64,000 nt of DNA from Pseudoramibacter sp. (GTDB lineage Bacteria > Bacillota > Clostridia > Eubacteriales > Eubacteriaceae), in assembly GCF_022484225.1 (NCBI RefSeq), contig NZ_JAKVLT010000001.1, forward strand, positions 1,851,406 through 1,915,405, given 5' to 3'. Positions within the stretch are counted from its first letter, which is position 1. Each line of letters starts with the position of its first letter. The position numbers and the translations under genes are program-made. Under the pieces are notes generated by a model. It did not search any database, was not told the origin of the DNA, and saw only the letters and a list, made by a program, of their open reading frames with translations. Of this stretch, positions 20,321-59,577 are shown one piece after another.

Positions 20321-21781
20321 CTAACGTCTGCGGTACCGGCGGGTATTGCGGTTGGTTGTTTTTTCATACGGACTGTTCTGGGTTCTCCGGCTCTGTCGGA
20401 GCTGGCGGGCGATTTCAGCTGCCTGGTTCGAGGTGTCCGAGCTGCTCCTGGAGACCGGCCGGGACGCCGTCGTCTGCCTGGTATAAGGCTTCAGCGGCGT
20501 GCGCTGCATCTGGGCCCGCTGACTCGCGCTGCTTCTTGTGGCGGTGCCGCCGGGCCGAGCCGGGGCGCTTCCGATAATGGATTCAATTTCCGAAATCGGA
20601 ATGTGGCGCGTGTTGGCCGTCAGGAAGTCCTTGTCGTGTTCGGTGGCAAACAGGGCCACCCCCAGGGCCAGCCAGAAGGTGTTGTAATTGATGCCCAAAA
20701 TCAGCTGATCGATGATCGCAAAAAGGGCGTAGGCCGAAGAGACGAAGAGCAGGTAATATTCTTCCCGCTGATACATTTTCCACAGCCCATAGATCACCAG
20801 CACCATAAAGAGTATGCTGAAGATGATCCCGTATTCCTGAAGCACCAGAATATACAGGGAATCGATAAAATTGTAGCCGGGATTGAACACCCCGCCGTCG
20901 GTGGACATCGGAAAGGCCCGGGGCCACCATTTGATCCCCCGGGTCGTCAGCGAGGTGTATTCCAGACGAAGCCGCCCCGAAAGGGTCGCATTCAGACTCG
21001 CCCATCTGGGCACATTGGGATCGTAATGATACCCGGCCCAGAGACAGATCGAACCGAAAATCAGCGGCGACGCCACCATGAGCATCCACAGAGGCTTCAG
21101 CTTGTCCGCCGGAATGGTGCGGTACTGGGACAAATAGGCAAAGACCAGCACCAGAATCGTCAGATAAAAAGGCAGTCTGGAATTGGTCATGATGAACATC
21201 GCCACATTGGCCGGCCCGAGAATGAGCAGCTCCAGTTTTCCCAGTTTTTCCTTTCGGATGTACACCACCAAAGCGCTGATGTTAAACAAAAGGGTCGGAC
21301 CGAAAGACGCGTAGCGAAAGCCCACCCAATGCCGGGGTCTGGCCACGTAGGAATCGAAATGATTCTGGATGATGCCCGCAAAGGAACTGAACACGATGAC
21401 CGCCAGCAGAATGGAGCTGACCACGATCGTGAGCTTGACCACTTTTTCAAAGTCGATGTCCCGGGCGCAGATGATGAACACCACGATCCAGGTCACCGAA
21501 TCCGTCACCACGTCCCCGATAGTAAAGTTAATCACCAAAAGAAAAGCAAAGCCCAGAAGGACGCCGAGCTTTTCTTTAGTGGACCGGGGCGTATTGATGA
21601 TTTCCTTGCAGATCAAGAGCAGGATGCTCAAAATCAAGAGCTTCGTTCCCATCGTGAACTGATAGTCGACGACGAAGAACGACGTATTGATAATGGAAAC
21701 AAAAAGGTAAACCGTATAGGAAATGAAAAACAGCCAGCTGTTTAAGTCCGTATTGACAAAACGCTTGAGTTCCTCTTTCAT
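20321..21781 (-). CDS. Wzy/O-antigen-ligase-like polytopic membrane protein with basic C-terminal tail
   Basis: About 486 residues with roughly ten hydrophobic segments in the first 390. It is related to the two Wzy-like proteins at 49112 and 53272: all three share a RH[YW]xGFxY block (here PRHWVGFRYASF), an ARDIDF-like block, and a large loop with SGRLRLE followed by YNFIDSLY. These are probably polysaccharide polymerases or O-antigen ligases of the Wzy/WaaL type. Unlike the other two it has a C-terminal tail of about 90 residues, rich in Arg, Ser, Thr and Gln, ending RRYRRR, presumably cytoplasmic or wall-facing. Start at the ATG at 21781, two bases after the lipoprotein stop. Substrate unknown. 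Confidence 0.7.
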   Translation of the reverse strand: MKEELKRFVNTDLNSWLFFISYTVYLFVSIINTSFFVVDYQFTMGTKLLILSILLLICKEIINTPRSTKEKLGVLLGFAFLLVINFTIGDVVTDSVTWIVVFIICARDIDFEKVVKLTIVVSSILLAVIVFSSFAGIIQNHFDSYVARPRHWVGFRYASFGPTLLFNISALVVYIRKEKLGKLELLILGPANVAMFIMTNSRLPFYLTILVLVFAYLSQYRTIPADKLKPLWMLMVASPLIFGSICLWAGYHYDPNVPRWASLNATLSGRLRLEYTSLTTRGIKWWPRAFPMSTDGGVFNPGYNFIDSLYILVLQEYGIIFSILFMVLVIYGLWKMYQREEYYLLFVSSAYALFAIIDQLILGINYNTFWLALGVALFATEHDKDFLTANTRHIPISEIESIIGSAPARPGGTATRSSASQRAQMQRTPLKPYTRQTTASRPVSRSSSDTSNQAAEIARQLRQSRRTQNSPYEKTTNRNTRRYRRR

Positions 21782-21783
21782 GC

Positions 21784-22272
21784 TCACCACGTCTTCACGA
21801 AAGCTTTGAGTTTATCGATGGAGGAGACAGCCTTTTTACTGCTGCCAGTCACCTGGTAATACTTCGGTGTGCCGTTGGTATTTTTGGATAAGACCCCTTT
21901 CCCCCGGATATTAAAGGCGATGGAGGTGCAGTAGCGGTCTTTGTCAAAGCCAAACACCACCGACGGCGACGTTTTGTCCTTCTGAACCACTGTAATCTGA
22001 TTATTTGCCGAATCTTCTGACACGGTGTACGCCGACTGATCCAGCGCATTTAACGTCTGAAGGACTTCATCGTAAGACTGGTTTTCAGCCGCCGCACCCT
22101 GATATTTCATAAAGACGTCCTGGAACAGCGCTGTGGTTTCGTAATGATGGGAACCCGACGCGGTTTTCTCCGACGCCGTCGTCTTCGCCGAAGACGCCGC
22201 GCCGCAGCCGGCCATCACCAGCACCATCAATGCCGTTAAACCCAATGCCCAGATTTTATTTTTTTTAATCAT
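21784..22272 (-). CDS. Predicted lipoprotein, unknown function
   Basis: A 162-residue secreted lipoprotein: a charged N-terminus MIKKNK, a hydrophobic core, and the lipobox VMAGC with Cys at residue 23. A Ser/Thr/Ala-rich linker follows. The mature part (about 110 residues) contains DVFMKYQGAAAENQSYDEV and ends in KLKAFVKTW. It has the look of small substrate-unassigned Firmicute lipoproteins (DUF3862-like beta-lactamase-inhibitor-fold proteins are one possibility, not proven). It is directly followed by the Wzy-like gene and preceded by the VanZ gene at 20 bases, so it is probably part of the surface-polymer unit. GAGAGAGG precedes the start. Confidence 0.75.
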   Translation of the reverse strand: MIKKNKIWALGLTALMVLVMAGCGAASSAKTTASEKTASGSHHYETTALFQDVFMKYQGAAAENQSYDEVLQTLNALDQSAYTVSEDSANNQITVVQKDKTSPSVVFGFDKDRYCTSIAFNIRGKGVLSKNTNGTPKYYQVTGSSKKAVSSIDKLKAFVKTW

Positions 22273-36452: not shown

Positions 36453-37061
36453 TTAAAATTTAAAAGTATCCTTAATCCCCAGCCATTTCTGATCTTTATC
36501 AGACAAATTAAGAGGTGTTCCGTCGCTCAATGTGTAGCCTTCTGCGCTGCAACTGCCCTGATATTCACCGACAACCTGGGGCCATTCGATGCCGATTTCC
36601 GGATCGTTCCAGGCCATGCCCCCTTCGTCGTTGGGGTGCCAGAAATCGTTGACTTTGTAGCAGAATTCCGCCACGTCTGACAGCACAAGGAAACCATGGG
36701 CGAAGCCTTCGGGAATTAAAAACTGCTTTTTATTTTCTTCGGTCAGTTCAACCCCATACCATTTGCCGTAAGTCTTCGAATCTGCACGCAGATCGACTGC
36801 CACGTCAAAAACGTCACCTCTAATGGCGCGCACCAGCTTGCATTGGGGATAATGTTTCTGGAAATGCAGTCCTCGAAGCACCCCTTTAGTTGACATGGAC
36901 TGGTTGTCCTGCACAAAGTCAATGTCAAAGCCTGCTTCTTTCATGTCGTTCTGATTGTAGGTTTCCATGAAATAGCCCCGTTCATCGCCATGAACCGCTG
37001 GTTCGATAATGCAGAGACCTTCGATGCCGCCAACGTTTTTTTCTACTTTAATCTGTCCCAT
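36453..37061 (-). CDS. rfbC: dTDP-4-dehydrorhamnose 3,5-epimerase, extra copy
   Basis: Second complete copy of RmlC/RfbC, 202 residues, differing from the copy at 38134 at only one internal residue (DVAEF versus DIAEF) and lacking its last two residues. Active-site elements are intact: HGDERGYFMETY, DNQSMSTKGVLRGLHFQ (catalytic His) and the Tyr of AEFCYKVNDFW. DNA differs from the other copy at many third positions, so it is not a fresh duplication. It lies behind a 3' fragment of rfbD and in front of the terminal GT4 gene. Probably functional but redundant. Confidence 0.95.
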   Translation of the reverse strand: MGQIKVEKNVGGIEGLCIIEPAVHGDERGYFMETYNQNDMKEAGFDIDFVQDNQSMSTKGVLRGLHFQKHYPQCKLVRAIRGDVFDVAVDLRADSKTYGKWYGVELTEENKKQFLIPEGFAHGFLVLSDVAEFCYKVNDFWHPNDEGGMAWNDPEIGIEWPQVVGEYQGSCSAEGYTLSDGTPLNLSDKDQKWLGIKDTFKF

Positions 37062-38133: not shown

Positions 38134-38748
38134 TTATGAATTAAATTTAAAAGTATCCTTGATCCCCAGCCACTTCTGGTCTTTATCGGACAAATTAAGG
38201 GGCGTGCCGTCGCTTAAGGTATAGCCTTCTGCGCTGCAGCTGCCCTGGTATTCGCCGACAACCTGGGGCCATTCAATGCCGATTTCCGGATCGTTCCAGG
38301 CCATGCCCCCTTCATCGTTAGGGTGCCAGAAATCATTGACTTTGTAGCAGAATTCCGCGATGTCTGAAAGCACGAGGAAACCGTGGGCAAAGCCTTCGGG
38401 AATCAAGAACTGTTTCTTGTTTTCTTCCGTCAGTTCAACGCCGTACCATTTGCCGTAGGTCTTGGAATCTGCCCGCAGGTCGACGGCCACATCGAAGACG
38501 TCGCCTCTAATGGCGCGCACCAGTTTGCACTGGGGATAATGCTTCTGGAAATGCAGTCCCCGGAGCACCCCTTTGGTCGACATGGACTGGTTGTCCTGCA
38601 CAAAGTCAATGTCAAAACCGGCTTCCTTCATGTCGTTCTGATTGTAGGTTTCCATGAAATAGCCCCGTTCATCGCCGTGAACCGCCGGTTCGATAATGCA
38701 GAGGCCTTCAATGCCGCCGACGTTTTTTTCAACTTTAATCTGTCCCAT
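38134..38748 (-). CDS. rfbC: dTDP-4-dehydrorhamnose 3,5-epimerase
   Basis: Third enzyme of dTDP-L-rhamnose synthesis, 204 residues, in the expected place after rfbD. The conserved HGDERGYFMETY, MSTKGVLRGLHFQ and AEFCYKVNDFW blocks carry the arginine, histidine and tyrosine of the active site. It is 21 bases downstream of rfbD in the same transcript. The neighbouring copy at 36453 encodes almost the same protein. Confidence 0.96.
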   Translation of the reverse strand: MGQIKVEKNVGGIEGLCIIEPAVHGDERGYFMETYNQNDMKEAGFDIDFVQDNQSMSTKGVLRGLHFQKHYPQCKLVRAIRGDVFDVAVDLRADSKTYGKWYGVELTEENKKQFLIPEGFAHGFLVLSDIAEFCYKVNDFWHPNDEGGMAWNDPEIGIEWPQVVGEYQGSCSAEGYTLSDGTPLNLSDKDQKWLGIKDTFKFNS

Positions 38749-42724: not shown

Positions 42725-43432
42725 TTAGATTTGTTTTGCGTACAGGCGTTTCGCTGTATCCTCTACTTTCAGATCCACCCGGGTCATCGCCGTTCCGATG
42801 ACGTTTCCTCCAGCATTTTGCAATTGAAGCAATGCCTGTTTGACCTCATCCTGAGCCGATGCGTACTGGCGAATACACAGCAGAACGCCGTCCACTGCTC
42901 CTGCCATCATCAGCGTATCAGAAAAACTTGCCGGTGCAGAATCAATGATCACCCAGTCATAATCGCCTTTCAGCTCACTTAAAATTTTTGTTAATGAATC
43001 AAGGCTGATATCATCAGAAGTAAAGTCTGCCGAAGTGCCTTTTGGCAAAACCTTTAAATCATCGTATTTTTCAGCAGAAACGACTGCCGGCACCAAATCA
43101 GTTTCCCCTTTTAAAAGATTCATCAAACCTGCTTGTTCTTTCGGAAGATTCAGGCGCTCTGCGACGTTCCCCGTTCTAAAATTGCCGTCCACGAGAACCA
43201 CTTTCTGACCAGCTTGTGTTAAACTCAGCGCCAAATTGATCGCCGTCGTCGTTTTGCCTTCCCCTGCAACAGCTGATGTCATCAAAAGTGTCTTGATTCC
43301 CTGCTTCTGCTGAATCGTTAGCAAATTCGTCCGCAGCACACGGTAAGCTTCAATAATCGTTTCCGATTGAATGTCCGGCAATAAAATATGATCGTTTCGG
43401 TCCTTTTGTTTTCCTGCGATGATCAAATTCAT
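42725..43432 (-). CDS. CpsD/CapB-type BY-kinase ATPase (copy 1)
   Basis: Bacterial tyrosine-kinase-family ATPase partner of the chain-length regulator, 235 residues. Walker A (AVAGEGKTTTAINLA) is near residue 55, Walker A' is VVLVDGNFRTGN and Walker B is YDWVIIDSAP; all carry the catalytic residues, although Walker A' has Gly where Ala is usual. The usual C-terminal tyrosine cluster is missing: only one Tyr is near the end (RLYAKQI), so classical autophosphorylation may be reduced or absent. It overlaps the upstream Wzz gene by four bases, the standard CpsC-CpsD arrangement. No CpsB or Wzb phosphatase is visible in the window. Confidence 0.88.
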   Translation of the reverse strand: MNLIIAGKQKDRNDHILLPDIQSETIIEAYRVLRTNLLTIQQKQGIKTLLMTSAVAGEGKTTTAINLALSLTQAGQKVVLVDGNFRTGNVAERLNLPKEQAGLMNLLKGETDLVPAVVSAEKYDDLKVLPKGTSADFTSDDISLDSLTKILSELKGDYDWVIIDSAPASFSDTLMMAGAVDGVLLCIRQYASAQDEVKQALLQLQNAGGNVIGTAMTRVDLKVEDTAKRLYAKQI

Positions 43433-44127
43433 TTCTGGCCATCCTTTCGTTTGGCGTCCACTGCCGCCGCACTCTTTTCCGTTGGAATGAGCCCCAATAC
43501 CGGCAGATCCAGAGCTTCTGTAATATCACTGCTGCGTTTAAAAGAACGGTCGTAAAGCCATGAAAAAACAACGATCAAAAGTGAAATCAATAGCCCGACA
43601 ATACCCCAAATCAGGGTGATTTTATTATAATGCGGTGCTGTTTGAATTAAAGAAGTTTGATTACGTCCATAAGATTTAGCTGATTCCACATCCTTTAACT
43701 TCATTAACTGTTTTTGCAGGCGGGTGTTTAGATAAACAGCTGTCTTCCGGCATTGTTCTGCATTATCACCACCGACGGTCAGCCAATAAGTATGGGTCGT
43801 TGACTTATCAATATCTGCATCATTACTGTGAATTGAAACATCGTTAATCAGTTGGTCAACTGATGTTGATAGGTTCAAATCTTTTTTGGCTTGACTTAAA
43901 AAACGATTAGAACGCAGCATTTCTTGGTATTGATCTTTGTCTGATGTTGATGTTTTTGCCGTCTTTGTCGTCACTACCATGGAAGTCGTCGCTGCAAAAG
44001 TCTTTTTCATGACATAATGAGAAAGACCATAGCCTACACCTGTAAAGACAATCGTCATGATTAAGATAAAAACAATATTATACTTAATTAAGCGAAATAA
44101 ATCTCGTAGATTAATCCTTGCATTCAA
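43429..44127 (-). CDS. Wzz/CpsC-type polysaccharide co-polymerase (copy 1)
   Basis: Chain-length regulator and BY-kinase activator, 232 residues. It has an N-terminal membrane segment (IVFILIMTIVFTGVGYGL), an extracytoplasmic middle of about 130 residues, and a second membrane helix LIWGIVGLLISLLIVVFSWL. The cytoplasmic tail (ITEALDLPVLGLIPTE) is the typical kinase-contact segment. It pairs with the kinase directly downstream. AT-rich. A divergent second copy of the pair lies at 50399-51780. Confidence 0.88.
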   Translation of the reverse strand: MNARINLRDLFRLIKYNIVFILIMTIVFTGVGYGLSHYVMKKTFAATTSMVVTTKTAKTSTSDKDQYQEMLRSNRFLSQAKKDLNLSTSVDQLINDVSIHSNDADIDKSTTHTYWLTVGGDNAEQCRKTAVYLNTRLQKQLMKLKDVESAKSYGRNQTSLIQTAPHYNKITLIWGIVGLLISLLIVVFSWLYDRSFKRSSDITEALDLPVLGLIPTEKSAAAVDAKRKDGQK

Positions 44128-47969: not shown

Positions 47970-49133
47970 CTATTCGCAAAAAATCTTTCTGTATTGATCC
48001 GCAATAAACGGCCAGCTGTAAGCGTCCTGGATGCGCTTTTTTGCCTTTTCGCCGTATGCATCCAAAACCTGTTGATCCAACTGATCTGCACGGTCAATTA
48101 AACTCGCCAGATTGCCTGGTTTCTTCGTCCAGTAAAGGGCAGCGTCTTCACCCACTTCTTCATTAAAACCGACTTTCAGCAGTAAATTTAGTTTTGTGCT
48201 GCCAAGGGCTTCCAGCAAACTGGGATTGGTCCCACCGACTTCATGCCCGTGGAAATAGCCGTAGGCATTTTCCCGGATCTTCTTCAATAATTCCGAATCG
48301 TACACTGTACCGACGAATTTGATTCGGCGGTCTCGTCTAAAGAACAATTTATTCTGCAGTTCATCCAGCAAGGCGTCGTTTGTGGTCGCGATGATGGCAA
48401 AATCCTTTTTCGTGTGGGATTTCATAAATTCGGCGATCATGGTTTCGTAGTTGTTTTCCGGGACAAAACGCCCCACTACGAGGTAATACTCATGAGCCCT
48501 TAATTTATGTTCGCGAAGCCAATTGGTAAACTTCGGATCGTCGTCTTTAAGCGAAGAAGGTTTAGTTTCGGAGCCGTAAGCGATAAACGTCGTCTTGGGA
48601 GCGTATTCGGCATAAGTTTCCTGAATATACTTTTCGATGTTCTTACTGTCACACACCAACAAATCCGCGTGCTTGACCATAAGCTTTTCCGAATATTTCC
48701 AGTATTTGCGAACCGGTTTGCTCCATTTCGCACGCATCCACTCATGTCCATCAGGATTCACAAAAACTTTTCCGCCCAATTGGTGAATACGCCGCACGTA
48801 TTTGGAAAAAAAGGGGCCAATTCGGCACGCGAGAACATAGACGATCGGTTTTTCAATCTGATGAGCCTGAATATATTGACAGCACCATTTCAAAGCGCGG
48901 ACGTCATACAGAATCGCCCGTGCCGAGCCGATATTCGGCGTCTTGACATTAAAGCATGTCGCATTGTGATACTTAAAAACGGGCTGTTCTTCGTTCAAAT
49001 CATCCCGGCACGCAACATAATAATGGAGACTTTGATTATCTTGATGATACTCAGTAAGCTTATCTACAAAAGTTTCGTAACCGCCGTAATGTCCTGGGAT
49101 GCCCTTACAGCCTACGATAAAAATGTGTTGCAT
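47970..49133 (-). CDS. Rhamnosyltransferase-like glycosyltransferase with DUF1972 N-terminus
   Basis: A 387-residue GT4-type enzyme whose N-terminus (IFIVGCKGIPGHYGGYETFV) is the DUF1972 domain of Cps2T/RgpA-like beta-1,4-rhamnosyltransferases. These attach rhamnose to the first sugar on undecaprenyl phosphate in streptococci. The C-terminal domain has YYLVVGRFVPENNYETMI and HGHEVGGTNPSLLEALGS. The ATG at 49133 (with GGATAACGG before it) is preferred; the upstream extension runs into the previous gene. With the dTDP-rhamnose pathway present, it is a good candidate for the second sugar of the repeat unit. The overlap with the polymerase gene is 22 bases. Confidence 0.88.
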   Translation of the reverse strand: MQHIFIVGCKGIPGHYGGYETFVDKLTEYHQDNQSLHYYVACRDDLNEEQPVFKYHNATCFNVKTPNIGSARAILYDVRALKWCCQYIQAHQIEKPIVYVLACRIGPFFSKYVRRIHQLGGKVFVNPDGHEWMRAKWSKPVRKYWKYSEKLMVKHADLLVCDSKNIEKYIQETYAEYAPKTTFIAYGSETKPSSLKDDDPKFTNWLREHKLRAHEYYLVVGRFVPENNYETMIAEFMKSHTKKDFAIIATTNDALLDELQNKLFFRRDRRIKFVGTVYDSELLKKIRENAYGYFHGHEVGGTNPSLLEALGSTKLNLLLKVGFNEEVGEDAALYWTKKPGNLASLIDRADQLDQQVLDAYGEKAKKRIQDAYSWPFIADQYRKIFCE

Positions 49134-50380
49134 GTTTCCGTTATCCTTTTCGTTCTTTTCCAAACAAAACGCTCCCACCATTGATTGACAGGAAGCACGT
49201 CAGCGTAAAATATTATGAGTAAAAATGTATTGTAATACGGCAATAAGATCAAGTCATCCACCACCGCGTGAATGGCTAAAACCGATAAAATCACCAATAG
49301 ACTGTATTTTTTCTGATGCAACAGCCGATAAGCAGCAACTGTGAATATCGTTATCAGGAGAACGCTGAAAACCACGCCGTATTCTAATAAGAAACGAACG
49401 TAGAGACAATCTAAATAGAAATATTCTCCCCGGCCACGAAGACCGCTGCCGCTGAGCCCATTGCCAAGCATGGCAATATTCTGACCAAAAGCACTGAAAC
49501 CATAGCGCTTAAAGCCTAAACGTCCCATTCGCAGACGGCCGCCCAAAGCGGTATCGATTTTTGCCATCCAAGAAATGTGGGGATTGTACCCAAAGGACAA
49601 CGCAATGCTGAAAACCGCGCAAAGGATAAACAGCCAGGGCAAGACCGCCGCAATTTTAGAAAATACTTTATGGAATGCCTTCGGCCATTTTTGACGGTAC
49701 CGCACCACAAAAATGCCCAAAATCATCAGTGCATTGAGAATAAAGTTGAGCCGGGCGTCGCAGAGCTTGTAAAAAAGATAAGCCAATGCCAATCCTAAAA
49801 CAAGTTCACTCCAGTGCAGCCGGTCTTTCCGCAGATAATAGTACAGCGCTTCAATATTAAACAACACCGTTGGCGGGAATAGGCAATACAAAAAGCCAAG
49901 ATAATGCCGGGTGACGCCGGGATGGGTGACCGTATCCAGGTAATCGGGGATTTTCCCTGCCACGCTGCTTAAGATGATAAACAGAAACAGCACGGTGCTC
50001 AAAATCAAGGCCCACCGTGCAATTTTTTTAAAATCAATATGCCGGGCGCCGAAAGCGAAAAGCAGAATCCACAAAAACGGGCGTCCCCATACATCACCAC
50101 TCAAATAGAAAGTCGCCAGCATGACCACAGCAATAAAAGCAATGCCGAGCCAGTCTGACAAAGTATAGTGAAAATCCGTCAATTCCGCAATAACCAGCAG
50201 TACAAAACAGAATTTGACCGTCATTTCGTAAAAACTGCCGACGTAATTCTGATAGAACGACACACACAGGATGAAATAGATCATGTACAAACTGAGGGCC
50301 AGCAAATAGAAAAAAGCCCGCAGATCGATCTCAGGGTATTGAATTTTAACGGTTTGATTGATTGTTTCTCGTTGATTCAT
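49112..50380 (-). CDS. Wzy-like O-antigen polymerase (paralogue 2)
   Basis: A 422-residue polytopic membrane protein with about ten hydrophobic segments. It shares with the proteins at 20321 and 53272 the blocks FGARHIDFKKIARWAL, VTRHYLGFLYCLFPPTVLFN and a large loop GGRLRMGRLGFKRYGFSAFG followed by YLDCLYVRF. It belongs to the Wzy/EpsG/ligase-like class and would link repeat units outside the membrane. The two in the main locus could polymerise different linkages. It lies 18 bases after the BY-kinase 2 gene's neighbour group and overlaps the DUF1972 glycosyltransferase. Confidence 0.78.
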   Translation of the reverse strand: MNQRETINQTVKIQYPEIDLRAFFYLLALSLYMIYFILCVSFYQNYVGSFYEMTVKFCFVLLVIAELTDFHYTLSDWLGIAFIAVVMLATFYLSGDVWGRPFLWILLFAFGARHIDFKKIARWALILSTVLFLFIILSSVAGKIPDYLDTVTHPGVTRHYLGFLYCLFPPTVLFNIEALYYYLRKDRLHWSELVLGLALAYLFYKLCDARLNFILNALMILGIFVVRYRQKWPKAFHKVFSKIAAVLPWLFILCAVFSIALSFGYNPHISWMAKIDTALGGRLRMGRLGFKRYGFSAFGQNIAMLGNGLSGSGLRGRGEYFYLDCLYVRFLLEYGVVFSVLLITIFTVAAYRLLHQKKYSLLVILSVLAIHAVVDDLILLPYYNTFLLIIFYADVLPVNQWWERFVWKRTKRITETCNTFLS

Positions 50381-50398: not shown

Positions 50399-51064
50399 TT
50401 AGTAAGGATTATCAAAGGTCAACACGCTGCCGACCACTTGAACGTGATTTTGCTGATAATTTGCCAACAGACTACGGGTCGCCTGGCGTGTGGCGTCCAG
50501 TTTCCGGACGACGAGCAGAACCCCGTTGGCAATCTGGGACAAGGCCAAAGCATCCGCGCTCTGATCCGCTGGCGGCGTGTCGATTAAGATCCAATCGTAG
50601 GGCAGATCCGCCAGCTCCCCCTTTAATCTAACGAGGGCGTCCGCTGGAAAAATCAGGGCATCTGACGGTTTGGACAATATAAAATCAAAAGGCTGAGAAG
50701 CCCGTCTTTCGATGCATTGTGCAACATTCGCTTGACAGTCGAAGAAAGCATTAAAGGATTTTTCACTGCTGCAGTGCAGCCGTTTTTCCATCTGCGGTTT
50801 CCGGCAGTCGGCTTCAATGAGCAGCACCTGCTGGTGCACAGCGCTTAAAGCCTCGGCCACGTTGAGGGCGGCTGTCGTCGTCCCCTGTCCGTCTTTCGGC
50901 CCGTTCAGCAACAGCACCTTGGGCCGTTTTGCTTCAGCCAATGGTAGTGCAAGTATATTATAACACAAGCGCCGGTAAGATTCCCGGTAAGCCGTATCCT
51001 GAGTCTGACTCAATGCGGTATTTGATATTGGGCGTTCTTTGCCCCATTTAAACAATCCCATCAC
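50399..51064 (-). CDS. BY-kinase-family ATPase (copy 2) with altered Walker A
   Basis: A 221-residue paralogue of the CpsD-type kinase, next to the second Wzz. The Walker A region reads GPKDGQGTTTAALN, where the family has GEGKTT(T): the invariant lysine is replaced by Thr. Walker A' is LLIEADCRKP (Glu for the first Asp), while Walker B YDWILIDTPPA is intact. There is no tyrosine cluster at the C-terminus (it ends SVLTFDNPY). ATP hydrolysis or kinase activity is therefore doubtful; a structural role with the Wzz partner is more likely. An intact reading frame argues against simple decay. Confidence 0.82.
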   Translation of the reverse strand: MMGLFKWGKERPISNTALSQTQDTAYRESYRRLCYNILALPLAEAKRPKVLLLNGPKDGQGTTTAALNVAEALSAVHQQVLLIEADCRKPQMEKRLHCSSEKSFNAFFDCQANVAQCIERRASQPFDFILSKPSDALIFPADALVRLKGELADLPYDWILIDTPPADQSADALALSQIANGVLLVVRKLDATRQATRSLLANYQQNHVQVVGSVLTFDNPY

Positions 51065-51072
51065 TGTTCCTC

Positions 51073-51780
51073 CTATTTTTTCCTTCTTTTGGACGCTGTC
51101 GGAATATCGCCCAAGACCGGCAATTCAAGATGTTCTTCCAATTGCCGCACATTGCGGTAATGAGAATCGCCGAGCACCCGAATGCAGAGATAGCCAGCGC
51201 TGAGCACCAGTCCCAGCAGCGCACCGGCTGCCGCATATTTTTTAGCCGGCGAATGAACATCGCGGCTGACCGTATAGTGCTGAGTCCGGACCGAATCTAC
51301 GGTATTGAGATTTTGAATTGGAATATTCAGCACGGCTTCCTTGCCGACCCGCATGACCTTCGCTACAGTTTTACGGCTGCTACCCTCATAATTCAGGGTT
51401 AATACATGCGTATAGGCATTGTTGTTGTCGCCGTGTGCAGGCGAAACGCGGAAATCAGCCAACTGAGAAGCTTTGACTGAACCCAAACGCACTTTTTCCT
51501 TGTAGTAGTACATGGGATCCTGAATCAATGTTTCAATGCTGTCGGCCTGGGAATCTGCGTCAACCCCAGGCTGATTCGGCCCATAAGGTGCATTGACCAC
51601 AAAATTGAGTTTTCCAGTATAGGCTACTGTTGTTCTGGACTGACCCACACCAAAACCCGCTATGGCAAAAATCACAGCAAAGATGAGGATCACAAACCAG
51701 TTGCGTCCGAGGATTCGCCACAGTGTCCGCGCCTCCAAGGTCACAGCATCATCGTATTTTTTCTGAATGTCTGCGTTCAT
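51073..51780 (-). CDS. Wzz/CpsC-type polysaccharide co-polymerase (copy 2)
   Basis: A 235-residue chain-length regulator. It has an N-terminal membrane helix (WFVILIFAVIFAIAGFGVG), an extracytoplasmic domain and a second helix (AAAGALLGLVLSAGYLCIRV). The tail HLELPVLGDIPTASKRRKK is kinase-contact-like and basic. It is followed after eight bases by BY-kinase copy 2. Its sequence is only distantly related to the copy at 43429, so the two pairs are not a recent duplication. Preceded by the Wzx gene. Confidence 0.85.
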   Translation of the reverse strand: MNADIQKKYDDAVTLEARTLWRILGRNWFVILIFAVIFAIAGFGVGQSRTTVAYTGKLNFVVNAPYGPNQPGVDADSQADSIETLIQDPMYYYKEKVRLGSVKASQLADFRVSPAHGDNNNAYTHVLTLNYEGSSRKTVAKVMRVGKEAVLNIPIQNLNTVDSVRTQHYTVSRDVHSPAKKYAAAGALLGLVLSAGYLCIRVLGDSHYRNVRQLEEHLELPVLGDIPTASKRRKK

Positions 51781-53271: not shown

Positions 53272-54495
53272 CTATTTTCGTCTCGCCTGCCGGGCCTTTT
53301 CAACCAACGGCCAAATCACCAAGGGTGAAAGGATCAGCCAGAAGGTATTCTGATAAATATTCAAAATCAAGTCGTCGATTGTGCCGTGAAGAGCCAGAAT
53401 GCCGCCGATCATGAGCAGATAGGTATCGCCGTTCTGATAGGCCCGGTAAAGCGCAAGGGTCATCAGGGCAATGAGCAGGGTGGTGAGCACCCAGCCGAAA
53501 TTCTGAAACATCTGAATGTACATGCAGTCGACGTAATTGTAAACGCCGTGGGTTTTAGAAAGATCCCGATGGCCTTTGTCATTTAATGCATTGCCGCTCA
53601 TTATAATAGCTTCGCCAAAGGGCCGCACGCCATGCTCTTGAAGGGAATTCTGTCCCAATTCCAGACGATGTCCCAGTTTCAAATTTAATTTGGACTGCCA
53701 GGGCACGTTGTTCGAATAGGCCAGCGTCGCCCCGACGCTTAAGATCATGCAAAACACAAACGCAAAGGCCAGCATGCGCCCGTGCCGCTTCGGCGCCTTT
53801 TTGCTTTTTCGGGCGTGCCGCCATTTGAGAGCCGCCGCGCCGAAGATCATGAGCAGGCACAGCATAACCGCGAGTCTGGCGTCAGTTAAGCTGAAAATAA
53901 GCAGATTGAGCACCGCAAAGGCAATAAGTCCGCGCCAAGGCATCTGATCTTTTTTAAGCCAGATCGCCAACGCCGTGAGATTCGAGAGAAAAACCGACGG
54001 GTACAGCGCGTATTTAAACCCAAGGTAATGCCGCGTGCGCCCTCCGCCTATCTCAACATAATTTCGGATGATGCCGATGCCGCTGCAGACCACCGTGATG
54101 ATGAAAAGCAGACTGCCGAGTTTCAAAGTAAAATCGGCGATTTTTCGAAATTCCACATCCCGCGCCGTAAACACAAAAATCATAATCCAGGTCACCGGAT
54201 TTAAGATCAAATCGTGATTGTGACTCAAAAAAACGGCGGCAAGACACGCAAAAGTCACGGCGCCGACGATGACGCTGCGCCGGATATCGTCGACGGGAAA
54301 ACATTCTTTTAAAATCAAAATAACCGCAACAGCAAAAAGCACCCATTTGTAGGCAATGCCGCCGTATTGAATCTGAAAAAAAGAAATATCCCACACTGAA
54401 CCGATTAAGTACAGACCGTAAGCCAGAAAAAACAGAAAATCCTTCTGGGTCCACCGCCGGGTCCGAAGTTGAAACGCTGCCGTTTGATTGTTCAT
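53272..54495 (-). CDS. Wzy-like O-antigen polymerase (paralogue 3)
   Basis: A 407-residue polytopic membrane protein, sister of the proteins at 49112 and 20321. The shared blocks are FVFTARDVEFRKIADFTL, RTRHYLGFKYALYPSVFLSN and the big loop LGHRLELGQNSLQEHGVRPF followed by YNYVDCMYIQM. These place it in the Wzy/ligase class. It is directly upstream of the Wzx flippase, and a DUF4422 gene lies just upstream. With two polymerases in one locus, one may act as a ligase transferring polymer to the wall or build a different linkage. Confidence 0.78.
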   Translation of the reverse strand: MNNQTAAFQLRTRRWTQKDFLFFLAYGLYLIGSVWDISFFQIQYGGIAYKWVLFAVAVILILKECFPVDDIRRSVIVGAVTFACLAAVFLSHNHDLILNPVTWIMIFVFTARDVEFRKIADFTLKLGSLLFIITVVCSGIGIIRNYVEIGGGRTRHYLGFKYALYPSVFLSNLTALAIWLKKDQMPWRGLIAFAVLNLLIFSLTDARLAVMLCLLMIFGAAALKWRHARKSKKAPKRHGRMLAFAFVFCMILSVGATLAYSNNVPWQSKLNLKLGHRLELGQNSLQEHGVRPFGEAIIMSGNALNDKGHRDLSKTHGVYNYVDCMYIQMFQNFGWVLTTLLIALMTLALYRAYQNGDTYLLMIGGILALHGTIDDLILNIYQNTFWLILSPLVIWPLVEKARQARRK

Positions 54496-58164: not shown

Positions 58165-59577
58165 TTATTCCGCGCCTTTTGCCGTAAAAACCACTTTGAT
58201 CGTCTTAAGTATCAATTTAAAGTCCAATCCCAGACTCCAGTTTTCGATGTAATAAGCGTCGAGCTTCACCACTTCTTCAAAATCGGTAATTTCCGAGCGG
58301 CCGCTGGCCTGCCACATCCCGGTCAGGCCGGGTTTCGCGGCCAGGCGCTTCAAATGGTGCATGTCGTACTGTTTGTACTCTTCGACAGTTGGCGGCCGCG
58401 TCCCCACGAGGGACATATCGCCTTTCAGGACGTTGAAAAACTGCGGCAGCTCGTCAACGCTCGCCTTGCGCAGAAAATGGCCGATGGGAATGATCCGGGG
58501 GTCGTTGTCCATCTTGAACATGAGCCCAGACATTTTGTTCTGGGCCATGAGTTCTTTCTTGCGTTCTTCCGCGTCGGGATACATGGTCCTGAATTTGTAA
58601 ATCTTAAAGGTTCTGCCGTTGCGGCCGACCCGTTCCTGGGCGAAGAAAATCGGCCCCGGGGACTGATGCTTGATGATCGGTCCAAAAATGATCAGGGCAA
58701 TGCCGGTGAAAATCAGGCCGATGAGAGCCCCGACGATGTCCGCAGCGCGCTTGACGATGAGCTTCCACTGGGGCACAGCGCTCATACTGGTAGTCATAAC
58801 CGTCAGGCTGCCCATTTTCTGGATCGCCTTGTTCGGGATATCGCTGTTGAATTCCGGCAGGGCGAGATGCACCGTCAGCCCCGCTTCCACAAACATCTTG
58901 ATCAAATGTTCCGTCGCTTTGTTGCGCACGTCGATGTCGATGAACACTTCATCGACGATGTTTTTGCGGACGTATTCAAAAACCGACCGCATTTCACAGA
59001 CGACGGGAATGTCGCGATAAGTCTGCCCCACCTGATCCTGAAGATCGTAGAGCACGAGTCCGCAGATGTTAAAAGAACGGTAGAAATTCCGCTGCAAATT
59101 GGCGATAGCGGACTCGGCATTGTCGCTGGTCACGATCGCCAGCATCTGCCGTTCTTTTTTGGAGACTCTGAGGCGATGGCGGACCACCCGCTTCCACAGC
59201 ACCCGTTCTGTGTAATTGAGCACGATGGACACCGGGATCATGGACACCATGAGTACCCGGGAATAATAGTAGGAATTCTGCATCAAAAACATCCAGAAGA
59301 TCAAAAGCATGATCGTCACAAAGGTGTGGATGCAGACGGATTTAAATTCCGCGTACCGATCCCGGTAGATGATATTGCTGTAGGTGGACGAAAAGAAAGC
59401 CGCGATGATGTGCGCCGGCACAATGGCGATCGCCATTCTTTTGTACAGCGGCGGAAACGGAATGAATACGCCGATTTTATAGGCGTAAACAATAAAAAAA
59501 GAGAGTTCAAAGAACACCAGGTCAAGCAGGAGAAAATCCAGATGCTTGACCCAGCTGCTCGTTTTTCTTTTATACAT
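58165..59577 (-). CDS. Undecaprenyl-phosphate sugar phosphotransferase (WbaP/CpsE type)
   Basis: Initiating enzyme that transfers a sugar-1-phosphate from a nucleotide sugar to undecaprenyl phosphate, 470 residues. About five N-terminal membrane helices are followed by a CoA-binding-like soluble domain. The C-terminal bacterial sugar transferase domain has SPGPIFFAQERVGRNG, YKFRTMYPDAEERK, DELPQFFNVLKGDMSLVGTR and LTGMWQASGRSE. All catalytic blocks are present. It heads the long minus-strand polysaccharide transcript and has its own promoter upstream. Whether it uses glucose, galactose or another sugar cannot be read from sequence. Confidence 0.95.
   Translation of the reverse strand: MYKRKTSSWVKHLDFLLLDLVFFELSFFIVYAYKIGVFIPFPPLYKRMAIAIVPAHIIAAFFSSTYSNIIYRDRYAEFKSVCIHTFVTIMLLIFWMFLMQNSYYYSRVLMVSMIPVSIVLNYTERVLWKRVVRHRLRVSKKERQMLAIVTSDNAESAIANLQRNFYRSFNICGLVLYDLQDQVGQTYRDIPVVCEMRSVFEYVRKNIVDEVFIDIDVRNKATEHLIKMFVEAGLTVHLALPEFNSDIPNKAIQKMGSLTVMTTSMSAVPQWKLIVKRAADIVGALIGLIFTGIALIIFGPIIKHQSPGPIFFAQERVGRNGRTFKIYKFRTMYPDAEERKKELMAQNKMSGLMFKMDNDPRIIPIGHFLRKASVDELPQFFNVLKGDMSLVGTRPPTVEEYKQYDMHHLKRLAAKPGLTGMWQASGRSEITDFEEVVKLDAYYIENWSLGLDFKLILKTIKVVFTAKGAE

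Follow-up and report, generated by a model that had tools for sequence, protein, structure and literature searches.

Two co-polymerase/BY-kinase pairs in one cluster

The window (the whole stretch of 64,000 nucleotides of Pseudoramibacter sp. DNA that we analyzed, contig NZ_JAKVLT010000001.1) carries two pairs of Wzz and BY-kinase genes, lying 7 kb apart in one cluster and on the same strand, as they also do in the related genome G004. The two BY-kinase-like proteins, here called copy 1 and copy 2, are the only BY-kinases of the complete genome to which the window belongs (G000), in which the weaker matches are ATPases of the ParA/MinD type. Copy 2 and wzz2 are flanked by the genes for a Wzx flippase and for a Wzy-like protein, and the genes concerned are as follows.

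42725 to 43432, minus strand: copy 1, BY-kinase-like
43429 to 44127, minus strand: wzz1, co-polymerase of copy 1
49112 to 50380, minus strand: Wzy-like membrane protein, polytopic, encoded immediately downstream from copy 2, assigned from position and hydrophobicity, homologous to the product of 53272 to 54495
50399 to 51061, minus strand: copy 2, BY-kinase-like but lacking the Walker A lysine, 220 aa when started at the ATG at 51061
51069 to 51074, minus strand: Shine-Dalgarno sequence AGGAGG, overlapping the wzz2 stop codon, 7 bases before the ATG at 51061
51073 to 51780, minus strand: wzz2, cognate polysaccharide co-polymerase adjoining copy 2, CapA/CpsC-like with a weak Wzz match, 235 aa
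51791 to 53260, minus strand: Wzx-type flippase (Pfam Polysacc_synt)
58165 to 59577, minus strand: initiating sugar-phosphate transferase of the cluster (Pfam Bac_transf and CoA_binding_3)

A Pfam search with the protein encoded at 49112 to 50380 returned no match; it is one of three related polytopic proteins in the window (49112–50380, 53272–54495, and 20321–21790, all on the minus strand) that resemble Wzy polymerases or ligases and match no Pfam family. Elsewhere in the window, two near-identical dTDP-4-dehydrorhamnose epimerase-like genes (36453–37061 and 38134–38748, minus strand, 202 and 204 aa) lie on either side of a glycosyltransferase gene; judged from sequence, this pair is a recent duplication, and G004 has a single copy in the region read.

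The reading frame of copy 2 is open from an alternative GTG start at 51064 as well (50399–51064, minus strand, 221 aa), but the ATG at 51061 is the likelier start, given the spacing of the AGGAGG and a close orthologue that begins at the same MGLFKW. The overlap of the Shine-Dalgarno sequence with the stop codon suggests that translation of copy 2 may be coupled to that of wzz2. Wzz2 has no kinase domain of its own, its tail reads VLGDIPTASKRRKK, and its gene is kept beside copy 2 in both G004 and G003, and beside a BY-kinase in G001. By fold and homology, copy 2 is a member of the BY-kinase family. Its AlphaFold2 model (pLDDT 88.9, pTM 0.87) has only BY-kinases as best PDB matches (Wzc, CapA-CapB fusions, Etk, and VpsO; E 7e-15 for Wzc), and the NCBIfam model eps_fam (TIGR01007) matches it with E 1.7e-15 and 57 bits, which is under the 108-bit cut-off.

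Motifs of copy 2 and copy 1

Copy 2 belongs to a clade of four proteins, from G000 (Thr at the Walker A lysine position), G004 (Thr, 85% identical), a contig binned as UBA4248 (Thr, 84%), and G003 (Met, 43%). The preliminary description of this DNA, which had been made from the letters of the window, stated that the Walker A lysine of copy 2 is missing, and the codon at that position is indeed one for threonine. The relevant residues are listed below.

50879 to 50881, minus strand: position of the Walker A lysine, codon ACG (Thr); ACG also in G004 and the UBA4248 contig, ATG in G003
50894 to 50896, minus strand: Lys at position -5 (that of the MinD/ParA signature lysine), codon AAA; in 4/4 clade members
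50813 to 50815, minus strand: first acidic residue of Walker A', Glu for Asp; copy 2 reads LLIEADCRKP
50570 to 50593, minus strand: Walker B, WILIDTPP, intact; Asp in all clade members
50963 to 50983, minus strand: ESYRRLC, degenerate EX2RX2R oligomerization motif; second Arg replaced by Cys (EX2RX2C) in 4/4

The whole Walker A region of copy 2 reads NGPKDGQG-T-TTAALN, and both ACG and ATG are a single base away from the lysine codon AAG. Walker A' has the form ExD in three clade members and ExN in G003. The glutamate at its first position had been taken as a further sign of inactivity, an argument that we do not retain because the same residue occurs in 7 of the 45 canonical, Tyr-tailed kinases. 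The protein ends with its last beta strand, the members of the group finishing in LTFDNPY or LTFDNNL, and it has one Tyr and no C-terminal tyrosine cluster. Retention of Walker B, of part of the P-loop (QG-T/M-TT), and of an acidic first residue in Walker A' may reflect residual selection on a nucleotide site.

Copy 1 likewise has a single Tyr in its tail and no tyrosine cluster, so the statement that neither copy has such a cluster stands. It had also been described as keeping Walker A, which is correct (SAVAGEGKTTT), but it does not make a clean active comparator: its Walker A' reads LVDGNFR, with the second Asp replaced by Asn (DGN for DxD). All 45 canonical BY-kinases of the order have that Asp and none has the Asn, which recurs in copy 2 of G003. 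Copy 1 may thus, like copy 2, be kinase-dead. This bears on the idea that copy 2 is a non-catalytic subunit in mixed rings with copy 1, tuning or localizing it, as has been proposed for PtkB and PtkA. The closeness of the two pairs in G000 and G004, the EX2RX2R motif and Walker A lysine kept by copy 1, and the reported cross-binding of PtkB to TkmA (PMC4205851) would fit such rings. However, with its Tyr tail and the second Asp of Walker A' both missing, copy 1 may offer no kinase to tune, and the copy 2 locus of G003 has no copy 1, the other BY-kinase of that genome being on a different contig and of a different subfamily. We therefore regard mixed rings as rather unlikely.

Distribution of the lysine loss

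The preliminary description had proposed an alignment of BY-kinases around Walker A across relatives, and this alignment bears out the loss as a feature of the clade. Of the 57 BY-kinases surveyed (56 from genomes of the order plus the one on the UBA4248 contig), only the four copy 2 proteins lack the lysine; the remaining 53/53 have it. As G003, G004, and the UBA4248 contig all share the loss against this background, chance or error is excluded for copy 2. A sequencing error or frameshift had been considered separately and was ruled out by the lysine loss in three other assemblies and by the clean frame.

In a phylogenetic tree, the copy 2 proteins form one clade (100/99), with copy 1 as likely sister (93/83) and the G001 protein next (93/81), although these are long branches. 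G003 is syntenic around the locus (tsf, glmM, initiating transferase, wzx, Wzy-like gene, wzz, copy 2) and has, on a separate contig, a canonical CpsC-CpsD(Tyr tail)-CpsB module in which the lysine is kept and the CpsB phosphatase is adjacent. In G001, a Wzz related to wzz2 (34%) adjoins a BY-kinase that keeps the lysine, whereas its EX2RX2R has lost the second Arg, its Walker A' the second Asp, and its tail the Tyr cluster. A class-wide search, giving 69 BY-kinases ranked by similarity to copy 2 and hence not a random set, contained one further lysine-less case (L163, with Ser), an unrelated fused co-polymerase from another family. The loss of the Walker A lysine thus looks rare yet recurrent in the sequences compared. 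A BY-kinase joined to a co-polymerase domain at L172:8757-10085 (G421:C60), in another family of the class, lacks the lysine independently (GEG-S-TTTA, VEGNLRKP, EAYNNLA).

Plasmid relatives of copy 2 all fall below 60% identity (26–31% among the matches listed) and include no orthologue, and a scan of public genome contigs found only the G004 contig and the one binned as Myxococcales UBA4248. The latter (L043, DGWW01000058.1) bears the Wzy-like, wzx, wzz, and copy 2 genes of the genus, with copy 2 at 84–85% identity, and is probably misbinned.

The survey also bears on the lysine at -5, which is found in 4/4 members of the clade versus 0/45 canonical BY-kinases. A conserved upstream lysine shown to substitute for the missing one had been named beforehand as a feature that would speak against inactivity; the lysine is there, but nothing shows that it substitutes. 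If it had taken over phosphate binding, copy 2 could be a MinD-type ATPase switch with no tyrosine kinase activity, a view consistent with the retained QG-x-TT and Walker B and with a weak P-loop match to an NCBIfam model of KGGVGR-variant ATPases, which also lack the canonical lysine, though copy 1 matches that model about equally. In MinD-type ATPases both lysines matter, and copy 2 does not have the two-lysine KGGxGK signature, the -5 Lys being present and the canonical one absent. We know of no BY-kinase that uses the -5 lysine for phosphate binding. Conservation of the active site, moreover, is lowered in copy 2 rather than raised (see below), and we consider the switch improbable.

Selection on copy 2

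The intact Walker B and reading frame of copy 2, noted in the preliminary description, are confirmed by the WILIDTPP motif, the open reading frame, and a dN/dS of 0.10 between G000 and G004 (Nei-Gojobori), which equals that of Wzz2 (0.098); copy 1 has 0.15. This dN/dS rules out a pseudogene. Could copy 2 nevertheless be a gene in decay that is about to be lost? The erosion of motifs looks progressive in the genus, with G001 having lost the second Arg, the Tyr tail, and the second Walker A' Asp while keeping the lysine. However, the frame of copy 2 has stayed open in four lineages, the most diverged at 43% identity, and with the low dN/dS and the apparently tight coupling to wzz2, we think decay very improbable.

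Constraint has instead moved within the protein. Between G000 and G003, copy 2 identity is 0.45 in the active-site region and 0.63 in the C-terminal strand-helix-strand region, whereas canonical pairs of similar divergence (n = 807) average 0.51 and 0.29, respectively. Subtracting C-terminal from active-site identity gives −0.16 to −0.18 for copy 2 versus a mean of +0.22 for the canonical pairs, with 0/807 as low; the 807 pairs are not independent of one another, but the direction of the shift from the catalytic site to the C-terminal region is clear.

Phosphatases

The CpsB phosphatase was found in 22/22 near-complete genomes of the family with a Tyr-tailed BY-kinase and in 1/3 with tail-less BY-kinases only, the one case being an orphan gene of G001 (Fisher p 0.01, treating related genomes as independent). 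Neither CpsB_CapC (PF19567) nor LMW-PTP (PF01451) was found in the complete G000 genome or in G004. The orphan CpsB/CapC-type gene of G001 (L102:7474-8268) is flanked by a comF-like and a murB-like gene, and the sole BY-kinase detected in that genome has no Tyr tail. A total absence of tyrosine phosphatases was considered and rejected, since a Y_phosphatase3 gene (PF13350) is present at G000:C1:1493072-1493851; it occurs in all five genomes of the genus, far from the polysaccharide locus.

The presence of this gene, along with the kept Walker B and a second Walker A' Asp in 3/4 clade members, could be read as favoring a copy 2 that is still an active tyrosine kinase, able to act on other proteins in trans even with the lysine gone. 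Replacement of this same lysine, however, is the standard way of making BY-kinases inactive, as in Wzc K540M, CapB2 K55M, and PtkA K59M (PMC11986026, PMC3795738, PMC4205851), and in copy 2 of G003, Walker A' is also missing its second Asp and its Arg. Activity of this kind therefore seems to us highly unlikely.

Discussion

With its catalytic residues and Tyr tail lost, its fold kept, and its conservation in orthologues, copy 2 can be classed from its residues as a predicted BY pseudokinase, in which the loss is partial, Walker B being kept. We consider it probable that this pseudokinase is of the two-gene CapA/CapB (PCP-2b) type and serves as a phosphorylation-independent scaffold for Wzz2. 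The preliminary description had already raised the possibility of chain-length control outside the standard phosphorylation cycle, with copy 2 as a scaffold for its Wzz partner, and this remains the best reading, based on the lost lysine and Tyr cluster, the selected frame, and the absence of CpsB and LMW-PTP, though without the argument from the Walker A' glutamate. Copy 2 would have derived from a true BY-kinase with its fold retained, would probably have kept its docking to the cytoplasmic tail of Wzz2, and would have lost tyrosine phosphorylation: having neither the lysine for phosphate transfer nor a Tyr tail as substrate, it would no longer be a tyrosine kinase. The scaffold could set the assembly state of Wzz2 beside Wzx and Wzy, with a presumed effect on chain length. 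In CapB, the octamer interface is described as formed about half by the EX2RX2R helix and about half by the Tyr cluster (PMC3795738). As copy 2 has no Tyr cluster and only one of the EX2RX2R arginines, any rings that it forms would have to be stabilized differently, Wzz2 and contacts made by its conserved C-terminal region being two candidates.

Two close parallels are Gram-negative. EcpK/EpsV of Myxococcus xanthus and HfsB/HfsA of the Caulobacter holdfast have been proposed as a PCP-2 group that is independent of tyrosine phosphorylation (PMC12004946). EcpK, like copy 2, is a stand-alone BY-kinase fold with no functional Walker A and no Tyr tail, and its partner EpsV, like Wzz2, is a kinase-less Wzz-like protein of a Wzx/Wzy pathway; HfsB is an inactive BY-kinase relative that is needed together with a kinase-less co-polymerase (PMC12004946). 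EcpK, however, retains no Walker motif, not even B, and its gene is not adjacent to epsV, whereas copy 2 is Gram-positive, still has Walker B and some of the P-loop, and adjoins wzz; the likeness to HfsB/HfsA is one of description. The placement of copy 2 among the BY-kinases of its genus suggests an origin separate from EcpK and HfsB, which were compared by description. By analogy, the best reading on present evidence is that copy 2 would work like these two proteins.

Other known systems share some of these features. CapA/CapB of Staphylococcus aureus has the two-gene arrangement of co-polymerase and kinase and the fold, CapA-CapB being among the top matches to the copy 2 model, but CapB has the lysine, EX2RX2R, a Tyr cluster, and the CapC phosphatase. 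CapB1 was proposed as a pseudokinase (PMC3795738) and later found to be active when fused to CapA1 (PMC6441080); it has all the motifs, which copy 2 does not. In Bacillus subtilis, PtkB (EpsB)/TkmB is likewise a second BY-kinase copy for which a pseudokinase role has been suggested, though PtkB is described as structurally a bona fide BY-kinase (PMC4205851). Among open-licence papers, we found no Gram-positive BY-kinase without the lysine; CapB1 and PtkB come nearest, and neither is reported to be lysine-less. Wzc K540M, which the copy 2 model matches best in fold, has the lysine replaced at the same position, but it is a laboratory mutant with Tyr tail and EX2RX2R intact, forming octamers partly through the tail. 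Since forms of Wzc K540M have been solved with ADP bound (PMC3795738), copy 2 could bind nucleotide and yet have no kinase activity, and binding alone would not be decisive.

For the genus as a whole, we would tentatively suggest that its two-gene chain-length system left the tyrosine phosphorylation cycle in steps, first with loss of the tail and ring contacts, then of a Walker A' Asp, and then of the lysine. G000 would in that case have neither a competent BY-kinase nor a CpsB-type phosphatase, and polymer control would run via protein contacts, possibly with the -5 lysine in a new nucleotide-sensing use. A BY pseudokinase acting as a structural partner is a theme known from other bacteria and, as far as we could find, probably undescribed in the present Gram-positive lineage. 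Whether PCP-2 co-polymerases need cycles of tyrosine phosphorylation is a question raised in Gram-negatives by the 2025 work on EcpK (PMC12004946), and the graded series in this Gram-positive genus offers natural comparisons for it: a lysine with no Tyr tail in G001, a lysine-less copy 2 in three genomes, and, in G003, a pseudokinase alongside a canonical kinase-phosphatase module.
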